Shown here: piece after piece, positions 11,904-18,936 of the stretch
Position numbering within the stretch: position 1 is the stretch's first letter
Layout of the letters: each line of letters begins with the position of its first letter
Virus record (IMG/VR): IMGVR_UViG_3300037485_000670
Span: 1 to 20,422 of that record
From: a virus
DNA length: 20,422 bases
Direction: 5' to 3' (one strand)
Translations under genes and position numbers: made by a program
The notes under the pieces: model-generated
Seen by the model: only the letters and a program-made list of their open reading frames with translations
What the model was told of the DNA's origin: nothing
Databases searched by the model: none

Positions 11904-12946
11904 GGGTTTACGATTTCAATGCAGTTAACGTAGTTGATACCCGCGTATTTATCGCCCGCTTCGTAAATATCGTCAGGTAATGTAACGAGTTTACCAGTAT
12001 GCGTCAATACAACAGATAAGTTACCGCAATCGTCTTTCATGGTTAAGTCAACAGGTAAGCCCGCAGGGGTGAAAGCAATTGTTTTAGAATAATTGCTACC
12101 CGCTACTGGTGTAATACCCGCGTTCCATTCTGCCATGTTAAACGATAGCCATTGCATCGCGCCAGCTGTCGTAGCTAAGTTCTTTAGCTGTGAACCTTGA
12201 GCCGCTGCCAAACGTGCATCGTAAGCAAAGCCGAAACCGTTTTGTTGCGAAATCGCTAACAAGTCGATACCGAATTGCGTGCAGCAACCTGCTTGTACCG
12301 CGTTAGCATAACGCTGCATTTCAGCACCGCCAAATACAACAGGCGCGCCCGGATAGTTAGCCATGCGTGTAGCTTGCAAGATGTCAGCTAAAGCAAATTC
12401 GTTCAATGCTTGCCCTCCCGTTTGACGGGTTGCAATGCGTAAACAGTCACCCGATACGGTGTAATAACCGCTAACCTCAGTACCCCACGACCCGATAGCG
12501 GCAACGGCTTGAGTAGCGGCGGCGCTTGCTACCTTACGGTCCATTACGTCCATTAAGCGCATGATTGATTCCAATACGTAACGGCTGTTTTCTTGGCAAT
12601 GACGGGCGATAGCATCAGCCGCAATCAATTGCTCAGCGATATACGTGTCGGTTGTTTCAAGCGTGTACGTGGTGGTCGAATCGCCGTAAGTGTTGGTAGC
12701 GGTACAAGTAAGGATATTACCGCCCTCTTCTACTTCCGTTTCGGGTAGGCGCTGAATCCAACGAGCCTCAACCGTCTTTAGCTTACCGCGACCGGGCGAT
12801 ACTTCCTGACGAATTAATTTTACGTTTTCAGGTGAATTAAGAAACTCGAGGAACGGTAGCTGTTCGCGCTGACCTACTTCGATAAAAAGCTCCGAAAGGC
12901 TCATTTGCACATTCGGGCATTCGGATAAAATGCGAGAAATTGACAT
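11900..12946 (-). CDS. Major capsid protein (HK97-fold candidate)
   Basis: From ATG 12946 the protein is 348 aa (MSISRILSECPNVQMSLSEL); a GTG at 12979 would add 11 residues but is preceded by a hairpin and less likely. Composition is typical of capsid subunits: low Lys, many Ala/Gly/Thr, long strand-rich C-terminal part. The stretch IRQEVSPGRGKLKTVEARWI resembles the N-arm/E-loop zone, and the following helix with RLMDVMDRKVASAAATQAVA resembles the spine helix. The portal, gpF-like, scaffold, capsid order strongly supports the call. It is a monocistronic unit or nearly so: a non-coding island lies upstream and a strong terminator downstream. The C-terminus carries the possible frameshift site described separately. 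Confidence 0.82.
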   Translation of the reverse strand: MSISRILSECPNVQMSLSELFIEVGQREQLPFLEFLNSPENVKLIRQEVSPGRGKLKTVEARWIQRLPETEVEEGGNILTCTATNTYGDSTTTYTLETTDTYIAEQLIAADAIARHCQENSRYVLESIMRLMDVMDRKVASAAATQAVAAIGSWGTEVSGYYTVSGDCLRIATRQTGGQALNEFALADILQATRMANYPGAPVVFGGAEMQRYANAVQAGCCTQFGIDLLAISQQNGFGFAYDARLAAAQGSQLKNLATTAGAMQWLSFNMAEWNAGITPVAGSNYSKTIAFTPAGLPVDLTMKDDCGNLSVVLTHTGKLVTLPDDIYEAGDKYAGINYVNCIEIVNP

Positions 12947-12981
12947 TTTGTTTTTAGGTTTTAGAGTTTGTGCTTGCACTT

Positions 12982-13006
12982 AAAAAGGCGGCAAACATTC
13001 ACGCCT
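12982..13006 (-). terminator. Hairpin with T-tract in capsid leader (attenuator-like)
   Basis: On the minus strand AGGCG-TGAATGTTTGC-CGCCT is followed by TTTT, 36 nt upstream of the capsid ATG. The stem is only 5 bp with an 11-nt loop, so it could be a weak terminator or a 5'-leader structure of the capsid mRNA. Confidence 0.35.
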
Positions 13007-13050
13007 AAAAATAATTTGTCATTTGAGCGCTGTAAATTTACGAAATGTTT

Positions 13051-13079
13051 TTGTAATTAAAAAAGTCGTTTTATATTTG
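13051..13079 (+). promoter_or_regulatory. Plus-strand Bacteroidota promoter for ncRNA
   Basis: TTG at 13051-13053, an 18-nt spacer and TATATTTG at 13072-13079 match the Bacteroidota consensus. It is the only good promoter I find pointing against the gene direction. The predicted start, about 13083, falls exactly at the first paired base of the downstream RNA stem. Confidence 0.72.
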
Positions 13080-13082
13080 CTC

Positions 13083-13180
13083 TCGAAACAATCGGGCGGT
13101 TGATTCGTATAAAAGATATTGATTCCTTTTACGGTTTCCTAATACCTCGAACAGCCCGCCCGCAGTTTCGGGGTTTTTTT
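13083..13180 (+). ncRNA. Predicted structured phage small RNA, about 98 nt
   Basis: The 5' end (13082-13099) pairs with the 3' end (13156-13172). There are 8 pairs (CUCGAAAC-type strand against GUUUCGGG), a 3x2 internal loop, then 7 GC pairs (CGGGCGG / CCGCCCG). Seven T follow directly at 13174-13180, so the closing stem doubles as a terminator. Inside, 13106-13115 and 13126-13133 form a second 8-bp hairpin with a 2-nt bulge. One closing pair is G-U only in the plus-strand RNA, and the T-tract exists only on that strand. Promoter, fold and terminator fit together without leftover sequence. I recognise no family; it lies antisense to the gene direction in the spacer upstream of the capsid gene. 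Confidence 0.68.
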
Positions 13181-13360
13181 ATGCCCAGCCCGTTCGAGCT
13201 ATTGACGGGATTAGTCGCAGACCTTTGGTTAGGTTAGGCTAAATGCGGAGGCGAGGCAAAGCAAGTATAACATCAAAACACAATACTTTTAAATCTATTG
13301 TCATGGGCTGTCAAACACCTTCCCGAATAGAGCCAAACTGTAAGCGAACGATTCTCAATG
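13181..13360. other. Non-coding stretch, nothing recognised
   Basis: No supported gene on either strand. A plus-strand 18-codon frame starting ATG 13181 (MPSPFELLTGLVADLWLG) begins right after the RNA's T-tract but has no supporting evidence. A short CCCGT/ACGGG hairpin lies at 13189-13208. Confidence 0.4.
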
Positions 13361-13475
13361 AGGATACTTAAAATTGGTAAGGCGTTTCTAATTCTCTCAT
13401 CGGGGGTAGGGGGTTAGAAACACCTTTACTTACCCTCTGTTTCACTCACTCAAACTCATAAGGATACTTTGAATT
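13361..13475. repeat. Direct repeats exactly 100 bp apart
   Basis: AGGATACTTAAAATT (13361-13375) and AGGATACTTTGAATT (13461-13475) match at 13 of 15 positions; a CTCA lies a few bases upstream of each copy. They bracket the inverted repeat. Confidence 0.6.
13377..13429. repeat. 15-bp inverted repeat with G/C-tract loop
   Basis: GTAAGGCGTTTCTAA (13377-13391) pairs with TTAGAAACACCTTTAC (13414-13429), with one bulged base. The single imperfect pair is C/A on the plus strand but G-U on the minus strand, so an RNA hairpin would be better formed on the minus strand. The 22-nt loop carries two runs of five G on the plus strand (GGGGGTAGGGGG). Confidence 0.65.
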
Positions 13476-13480
13476 TAAAT

Positions 13481-13507
13481 AAAAAAAAAGCCGCGTGTTA
13501 GGCGGCT
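13481..13507 (-). terminator. Intrinsic terminator of the 97-aa gene
   Basis: On the minus strand AGCCGC-CTAACAC-GCGGCT is followed by eight or nine T, about 20 nt past the stop at 13527. Clear and strong. Confidence 0.88.
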
Positions 13508-13526
13508 CTTAAATTGCTTTTAAAGA

Positions 13527-13820
13527 TTACAGGCGAGTGTATAAGCCTGTTACCTGAGTGAATATAGATTGTAACATATCGTTATAAACGTTTTCGAATT
13601 TTGCTTTTGTTTTGATGTTAAACTCTTTATCGAAGGTGTAAAAGTGTACATCGTAAAGGTCTAACGAATTAAGCTCGATGCTTAGTTGTTTTGCTTGTAC
13701 TTTGTTTCTGCGTAGTGTCATGCGCAAACCGTTGTTAGTTGCGATGAAGTTAAAAGAGCCAGTCATTACCGCGAATTTGTTACCGCCTAATTGCTCGAGA
13801 ATTTGTGTTGCTGTGTTCAT
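13527..13820 (-). CDS. Stand-alone 97-aa protein ending GLYTRL (moron-like)
   Basis: A 97-aa protein starting MNTATQILEQLGGNKFAVMT, with strand-rich NFIATNNGLRMTLRRNKV and LDLYDVHFYTFDKEFNIKTK, and a C-terminal helix MLQSIFTQVTGLYTRL. The pattern ILxQLGGNKF...NFI...LDLYDV...QSIFT..TGLYTxL is one I recall from widespread small orphan proteins of phages and mobile elements; the function is unknown. The gene has its own promoter and terminator and interrupts the scaffold-capsid order, the hallmark of a moron or independently timed gene. Its promoter and leader resemble those of the 60-aa gene at 4155-4337. Confidence 0.8.
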   Translation of the reverse strand: MNTATQILEQLGGNKFAVMTGSFNFIATNNGLRMTLRRNKVQAKQLSIELNSLDLYDVHFYTFDKEFNIKTKAKFENVYNDMLQSIFTQVTGLYTRL

Positions 13821-18236: not shown

Positions 18237-18313
18237 TATGCGACGGCTTTTGATGTTGGGTTAACGATTACGTGCGACCCGCACGACTTAGAACGGCAGT
18301 ATGTAGGTTTCAT
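18236..18313 (-). CDS. 25-residue cysteine mini-protein between methyltransferase and portal
   Basis: From ATG 18313, sharing ATGA with the methyltransferase stop, to TAA at 18236-18238, sharing TAATG with the portal start. The peptide is MKPTYCRSKSCGSHVIVNPT plus five residues. It contains two cysteines spaced CxxxxC. Coupling at both ends by overlapping stop/start codons is hard to explain unless the frame is translated. Function unknown; it could bind metal, act as a portal partner, or simply relay ribosomes to the portal gene. Confidence 0.62.
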   Translation of the reverse strand: MKPTYCRSKSCGSHVIVNPTSKAVA

Positions 18314-18936
18314 AATTTCTGCAATATTGATAAGCCACGCCCCTCGGAGGTGTTGAGCGTAACAACGTTATACTTATAATGATTAACGTAGCGCATTAAT
18401 TCCGCAACGTCTGGTATGTGTAGCGTATCATGGTAAGCAATAACGCCTCCCTTTGCGATTACGCGCTCAATCTCTTTAAACTCGGGTAAAATATTAGCCC
18501 AACTATGGTCGCCGTCAACAAAGATAAAATCGAAATGCTCACGAGGCATACCTTTAATAACCTTAATAGATTCGCCTAAAATGAAATCCACAGCTACACC
18601 GCCACGTTCTAACTTATGCTTGCGATGGTCGTTAATATCGATGCCAGCATAGTAACCGCCTTGCGGCAAAGCCTCAATCATTTTAACCGAGGTTTCGCCC
18701 TCGAATACACCAATTTCTAAAACGGCTTTAGCACCTTGCATCTTAATTAACGAACCGATAAACTCACATACATCGGGTTCACTATTCCAACCGTGGCGCG
18801 GCGTTTCACTAAAGGTTTCGGTTGTTACTAAAACCTTTTCGGGTAGCGGCTCAAGGGCGTAAACGTAATCCGTTTTAATCGCCTTTTCTTTTTTAGCTTT
18901 TGGCTCGGTTGCCTTTTTACTTTTTGTTCCCTGCAT
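18310..18936 (-). CDS. Class I SAM-dependent methyltransferase
   Basis: A 208-aa enzyme of the O-methyltransferase-3/Methyltransf_24 type. Motif I is AVLEIGVFEGET (residues 71-82), the acidic residue ending strand 2 is D100 in YAGIDIND, and a strand-4 motif FDFIFVDGDHSW (136-146) is followed by GGVIAYHDT (163-171), where D and H could bind a metal and orient the acceptor. The first 25 residues are a lysine-rich tail (KSKKATEPKAKKEKAIK). Substrate unknown; the adjacent glycosyltransferase suggests a sugar or glycan. It overlaps that gene's end by 20 nt and is coupled to the mini-gene. Confidence 0.85.
   Translation of the reverse strand: MQGTKSKKATEPKAKKEKAIKTDYVYALEPLPEKVLVTTETFSETPRHGWNSEPDVCEFIGSLIKMQGAKAVLEIGVFEGETSVKMIEALPQGGYYAGIDINDHRKHKLERGGVAVDFILGESIKVIKGMPREHFDFIFVDGDHSWANILPEFKEIERVIAKGGVIAYHDTLHIPDVAELMRYVNHYKYNVVTLNTSEGRGLSILQKL

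Follow-up and report, generated by a model that had tools for sequence, protein, structure and literature searches.

The spacer upstream of a putative phage capsid gene contains what the evidence supports as a plus-strand structured RNA with its own promoter and terminator, previously undescribed and of no known family. Covariation among its homologues demonstrates, at the level of sequence comparison, that the family is real and that the loops of the first and third of its three serial hairpins form a kissing helix, a long-range contact backed by covariation and not by energy alone. The phages that carry this family, which is absent from Rfam, have no detectable portal or capsid protein relatives among isolated phages in the 50,697 phage records searched.

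Genomic setting and distribution of the RNA

The window, meaning the whole stretch of DNA analysed, is a 20.4-kb IMG/VR virus fragment whose genes lie nearly all on the minus strand and include endolysin, tail-fibre, and portal matches. A methyltransferase gene (18310-18936, minus strand; Pfam Methyltransf_3 and Methyltransf_24) is present between the portal gene and the window end. The kissing-loop RNA lies in a 550-nt spacer (Table 1) upstream of a 348-aa minus-strand gene with its start codon at 12944-12946. The assignment of this gene as capsid is putative, drawn from gene order and the preliminary description; its AlphaFold model (mean pLDDT 33.5) was of no use. The phage is presumably of an uncultured Bacteroidota type, a host assignment made from the promoter type only; phages of Flavobacterium, Elizabethkingia, and Tenacibaculum gave short matches confined to the promoter words. 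A search of the spacer for tRNA and tmRNA genes found none.

Table 1 Features in and around the spacer of the window
Feature	Coordinates	Strand	Details
Divergent promoter of putative capsid gene	13033-13063	minus	TTTT (-33), 19 nt, TAAATTTA (-7, 13040-13033)
Bacteroidota-type promoter of the RNA	13051-13079	plus	TTG (13051-13053), 18-nt spacer, TATATTTG (13072-13079)
Kissing-loop RNA, ~91-97 nt	13084-13180	plus	predicted start C13084, end in U-tract; covariance model R1, 103.6 bits
Hairpin H1	arm 13084-13090 with 13101-13107	plus	92.9% of cells paired, mostly invariant; one A-A mismatch in window
Loop L1	13093-13099	plus	CGGGCGG, within H1 (13084-13107)
Hairpin H2	13115-13144	plus	folds in each homologue; sequence and length vary; no kissing contact seen
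Hairpin H3, terminator stem	arm 13145-13154 with 13163-13173	plus	both sides changed in 5/10 pairs
Loop L3	13156-13162	plus	CCGCCCG, within H3 (13145-13173)
Kissing helix L1-L3	13093-13099 with 13156-13162	plus	7 Watson-Crick pairs in window
U7 tract of terminator	13174-13180	plus	from sequence; invariant in homologues
Module A, second structured RNA	13181-13462	plus	alignment A2; directly after terminator; ~280 nt
Intrinsic terminator, ordinary	13486-13510	minus	behind 97-aa gene 13527-13820 (phrog_9437)

A search with the capsid protein yielded 80 related loci, the source of the spacer comparison, and found no bacterial relative. All compared sequences are metagenomic. The RNA is present in the spacers of L004, L006, L008, L009/L020, L010, L014-L016, L022, L058, L066, and L067, and L158 and L174 came from pattern scans across the full set of viral contigs. 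The total is 10 distinct sequences in 16 viral contigs (window included), to which is added L005, an RNA-bearing contig that ends inside the RNA. Most matches of a first viral pattern scan were chance, many of them evidently coding DNA. Seven pattern matches in bacteria lack the kissing loops and the terminator and score as background with covariance model R1, and were therefore treated as chance. Across 40 related contigs, the same model gives high scores to the RNA in 10, with no second site. In RNA-bearing contigs that include the putative capsid gene, the RNA lies upstream of it. The RNA is missing from the contigs, some of them incomplete, of several relatives whose capsid proteins are 95-98% identical.

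At gathering cut-offs, Rfam 15 gave no match in the window or in the loci of 11 relatives, in agreement with the preliminary description, which had recognised no known RNA family. The best sub-threshold match was STnc220 (24.6 of 60 bits, E 0.075), and the C4 family (P4 CI/P1 c4) does not appear among the Rfam matches listed, with E-values up to 10. Two candidate assignments were rejected: 6S RNA (6S-Flavo), which gives no covariance model match and whose end-closed helix is not the conserved pairing, and phi29-type packaging RNA, which likewise gives no match and has a three-way junction as opposed to three serial hairpins. The complementary hairpin loops preserved by compensatory change place the RNA in the mechanistic class of kissing-loop RNAs.

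Conserved fold and kissing helix

The plus strand folds with an energy of -32.4 kcal/mol (z -3.4), better than 200 of 200 dinucleotide shuffles. However, the fold of the minus strand is just as good (z -3.8), so strand choice by energy alone fails. The words TTG plus promoter box occur five times against about two expected per 20 kb on both strands, which alone is not significant. Comparative evidence is needed, since both strands fold alike and the promoter words are near chance.

Across the 10 distinct sequences the conserved fold consists of the serial hairpins H1, H2, and H3, of which H3 is the terminator stem. The H1 consensus (CGAAACA...TGTTTCG) is nearly invariant, and that of H3 (CCYCGA...TTCGGGG) is followed by U7. 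The kissing helix comprises 6 to 7 Watson-Crick pairs and is 100% paired in 10/10 distinct sequences, with four of its seven pairs changed on both sides. The seven-pair loop combinations (L1/L3) are CGGGCGG/CCGCCCG in the window, CGAGCGG/CCGCTCG, CTTGCGG/CCGCAAG, CTTGCAG/CTGCAAG, and CTTGCGC/GCGCAAG. The six-pair combinations are GTGCAG/CTGCAC, GTGCCG/CGGCAC, and GTGCCT/AGGCAC; in these three loops one N was inserted in the alignment for register and those cells were set aside. The whole structure has 24 pairs, with 96.2% of cells standard and nine pairs changed on both sides, counts that represent non-independent events because the 10 sequences share ancestry. Its covariation score was reached by 0 of 500 shuffles. 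Conserved G-U pairs in H3 (alignment columns 74-98, 76-96, 77-95, and 78-93) would become A-C mismatches on the other strand, so the plus strand is favoured, as had been proposed from the window alone; promoter and U-tract agree.

The preliminary description had drawn a nested hairpin, in which an 8-bp helix joined the first and last bases of the transcript around seven GC pairs. The seven GC pairs are right, but they form a loop-loop kissing helix. The 8-bp end-to-end helix does not hold: it is broken in 5 of 10 relatives with no compensatory change, and its outermost pairs would involve bases that precede the predicted start. The nested hairpin is rejected for this uncompensated outer helix and for an inner arm broken at two positions, each in 7 of 10 sequences. 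Uncompensated change in the arms had been named in advance as evidence against the proposal; by that test the inner GC helix survives, within a different overall fold. The loop helix is common to the nested and the H1-H2-H3 folds, and the other helices of the nested fold break. RNAalifold still prefers the nested fold, but cannot write pseudoknots. The kissing helix could also form between two molecules instead of one.

Promoter, predicted start, and ends

Both the promoter (TTG-N18 followed by the TATATTTG box) and the seven T after the fold, as originally reported, are present in the window. As the promoter words alone are near chance, the assignment is carried by their fixed spacing to the RNA: TTTG-NNNN-CGAAAC is constant in all homologues. 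In L174 and L176 the box is weaker (TTAC-TTTG). The -7 box of Flavobacterium sigma-A, TAnnTTTG, lies at -12 to -5 (PMC9723704), which predicts a start at 13084 and not at 13083 as first proposed. H1 begins with C13084, which opens the CGAAAC motif; the four preceding positions vary freely among homologues (CTCT, TTCT, TAGG, and AAGC), as expected if they lie outside the RNA. A promoter- and terminator-bounded RNA of about 95 nt is predicted; the original estimate was ~98 nt. The accompanying description of the RNA as self-contained is not supported, as in every case the RNA forms the leading portion of a longer cassette.

Modules behind the RNA

Module A has a plus-strand consensus fold (-52 versus -30 +/- 4 for shuffled columns) and no Rfam match. 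It is present in the window, L117, L106, L158, L174, L176, and L110, and it leads into a 38-39-aa Lys-rich basic ORF in L022 and L058 that is lost in the window, L008, and L009. Module B (alignment A3), a structured RNA of ~330 nt found in L121 (5609-5938), L122, L088, L137, and L066, likewise has a plus-strand fold much stronger than that of shuffled columns. The ORF after it encodes a GIY-YIG nuclease in L006 and L067 and a Mom-family protein in L066. Module B shares a 5' GGUCGGGAUAAAcUACGGC hairpin and the next stretch with both Betaproteobacteria-1 (RF02932; 28.5 bits, E 0.0012) and HOLDH (RF02997; 21.2 bits, E 0.0025), the alignment to HOLDH covering the 5' part alone. Membership in either family was rejected, as these scores are far under the gathering cut-offs of 319.4 (HOLDH) and 49.4 bits (Betaproteobacteria-1).

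Comparison of the contigs demonstrates linkage of the kissing-loop RNA to these modules: it stands before the module in each of the 8 module-A and 7 module-B contigs, always in the same orientation, and the module begins immediately after the U-tract. Neither module was found without the RNA in front by exact-pattern scans, which were built from known members and would miss diverged lone modules. An identical 89-nt RNA core precedes module A in L058/L110 and module B in L066 and L067/L137, which puts the junction at the terminator. No TTG-N17-20-TAnnTTTG occurs inside RNA plus module in 15 contigs, which argues weakly against a promoter belonging to the modules.

Hypervariability and alleles

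The interior of the RNA is hypervariable, differing by 16-44% between contigs whose flanks differ by 1-3%. This is seen in L117/L158 (RNA 44.4% different versus flanks 2.6%, p 5e-24), L106/L158 (38.9% versus 2.3%), and L122/L088 (16.5% versus 1.0%, p 1e-8); in L174/L176 the values are 36.3% and 8.6%. The changes between L122 and L088 are in the loops, the H3 arms, and adjoining positions, with H2 and the flanks unchanged. The window and L176 share an RNA type despite flanks 13.9% apart. Allele exchange together with compensated local change would explain both the near-identical-flank and the shared-type patterns. There are eight distinct loop pairs, among which cross-complementarity is 0/56. 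The fast but joint change of loop letters points to selection on the contact and perhaps on its specificity, and rapid compensated change of this kind suggests that the contact is allele-specific. Near-identical genomes that differ almost only in the RNA, with both loops changed, constitute a natural mutagenesis series, which makes loop-loop control of termination and the question of self versus non-self among RNA alleles directly testable in vitro.

Possible functions of the RNA

We tentatively interpret the RNA as the leader at the 5' end of a non-coding RNA cassette in these phages, one that acts as a terminating attenuator, a reading that we consider possible and that is the simplest account using fold, linkage, and hypervariability. 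We infer that RNA polymerase would start at 13084 and make H1, H2, and then H3, whose stem with U7 would release most transcripts as ~95-nt RNA; the remaining transcripts would read through into module A (module B in relatives). The kissing helix L1-L3 would tune termination and read-through in cis on the nascent leader, and finished copies of the same allele may also act in trans. The terminator stem covaries, and the kissing helix is perfect in 10/10 sequences through eight loop pairs, both in support of an attenuator. However, a pure attenuator need not be hypervariable. Read-through in the window, L008, and L009 would yield non-coding RNA, since these have lost the module-A ORF.

The RNA might instead act in trans as a small RNA in its own right, a regulatory moron that binds host RNAs or proteins; its terminator would be efficient and the modules would be transcribed otherwise. 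We regard this as unlikely. The RNA has its own promoter and terminator, its presence among close relatives is patchy, as for morons, and its fast divergence would be consistent with a host-phage arms race. However, its linkage with modules A and B is 15/15, the loops likeliest to bind a target are already paired with each other, and no own-genome target stands above chance. The last point also bears on the earlier suggestion that the RNA regulates capsid expression, for which neither the window nor seven related contigs gave an antisense target above chance. Antisense control of the capsid or other phage genes was rejected, with start-region duplex scores of abs(z) <= 1.7 in the window; in the seven contigs, shuffled queries gave longest antisense matches at least as long as those of the RNA.

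Less probable still is an allele-specific RNA immunity or incompatibility, in which the finished RNA would pair through L1/L3 with an incoming nascent leader of the same allele and force termination, and a leader of another allele would escape. A hypervariable interior between near-identical flanks, loops that always change together, alleles common to different backgrounds as if exchanged, and the lack of cross-complementarity between alleles are all consistent with this, but compensated drift and recombination could give the same pattern, and the mechanism would presuppose lysogeny or frequent co-infection. If true, the RNA would be a hypervariable self/non-self determinant with orthogonal, exchanged alleles, each silencing only same-allele cassettes during co-infection. 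It would constitute an RNA-only incompatibility system that guards an element carrying a large structured RNA, joined in some phages by a GIY-YIG nuclease of homing type.

The phi29 packaging RNA is small and carries a pair of loops, complementary to each other, whose letters change in step. A self-assembling RNA of this type, with loops joining molecules into a ring or dimer, perhaps in the virion or packaging motor, is very improbable here. The two complementary, freely changing loops of the kissing-loop RNA recall the L and R loops of the phi29 RNA, and it is positioned among head genes, but it differs in architecture, lacking both a three-way junction and a conserved end-to-end helix, and it has no Rfam match. 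Nor is it conserved with the capsid, since contigs from relatives whose capsid proteins are 95-98% identical lack it, so the packaging role raised in the preliminary description is unlikely. A plain or bidirectional intrinsic terminator, that is, hairpin debris without RNA function, is hardly credible. H3 with U7 is a standard terminator and the minus strand folds just as well, but a terminator alone explains neither the compensated long-range kissing helix in 10/10 sequences nor the conserved promoter at fixed spacing, and as a complete account the idea is refuted if the covariation stands.

Comparison with known regulatory RNAs

The attenuator reading has parallels in known phage RNAs. The P4 CI RNA is a small phage RNA from an operon leader that causes premature termination by RNA-RNA pairing (PMC4825925), and the c4 RNA of P1/P7 acts in heteroimmunity through loop-presented pairing (PMC12197685). 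The architecture of the kissing-loop RNA is compatible with premature termination of the downstream transcript in the manner of P4 CI (seqA leader control) and P1/P7 c4. However, the kissing-loop RNA has its own promoter and terminator, pairs two loops of the same RNA, and has no sequence match in Rfam. The put RNA of HK022, a structured leader of ~70 nt just after a phage promoter, controls terminators (PMC9378689). The kissing-loop RNA resembles it as a structured phage leader just after a promoter, but put folds into two stem-loops and targets RNA polymerase, countering terminators further downstream, whereas the kissing-loop RNA has three hairpins and its terminator is part of the fold. 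In copy-control RNAs of the ColE1 RNAI/RNAII type, the sequence of the kissing loops determines specificity and compatibility, but the two partners are the sense and antisense transcripts of a single locus, whereas here both loops are on one strand. P4 CI, P1/P7 c4, HK022 put, and ColE1 RNAI/RNAII are relatives in logic, none shown to be related by sequence.

The capsid side of the spacer

A divergent promoter of the putative capsid gene is present in 15/15 contigs, with a -7 box of TAAATTT(A/G), that is, TAAATTTA or the same word ending in G, a T-rich -33 element, and N19 between them. L174 and L176 have a perfect version, TTTG-N19-TAAATTTG. The capsid and RNA promoters are back to back, their -33 elements no more than about 10 bp apart, so that initiation at one start site may preclude initiation at the other; there is no overlap between the RNA and the capsid mRNA. 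Minus-strand transcription probably stops ahead of the spacer at the terminator behind the 97-aa gene, so that the capsid gene would need its own promoter.

The 5' leader of the putative capsid mRNA contains a strongly covarying H-type pseudoknot (12971-13006, minus strand), recovered in all relatives examined (36 distinct sequences). Its stem 1 (AGGC/GCCY, 13002-13006 with 12986-12990) is essentially invariant, and stem 2 (12991-12997 with 12971-12977) has 18 different compensated versions and a mean score of 14.6, versus 5.9 +/- 0.8 with partners permuted. In logic it is like the autoregulatory pseudoknot of T4 gene 32 (PMC535899, PMC3014915). With the kissing-loop RNA, this pseudoknot, and exchangeable large RNAs, the spacer appears to be a hot spot of RNAs next to a head gene. 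At the same spot, L007, L011, L012, L017-L019, L031, L032, L069, and L072 have another structured RNA of ~400 nt and no kissing-loop RNA; it folds best on the minus strand (-82 versus -42 +/- 3 for shuffled columns).
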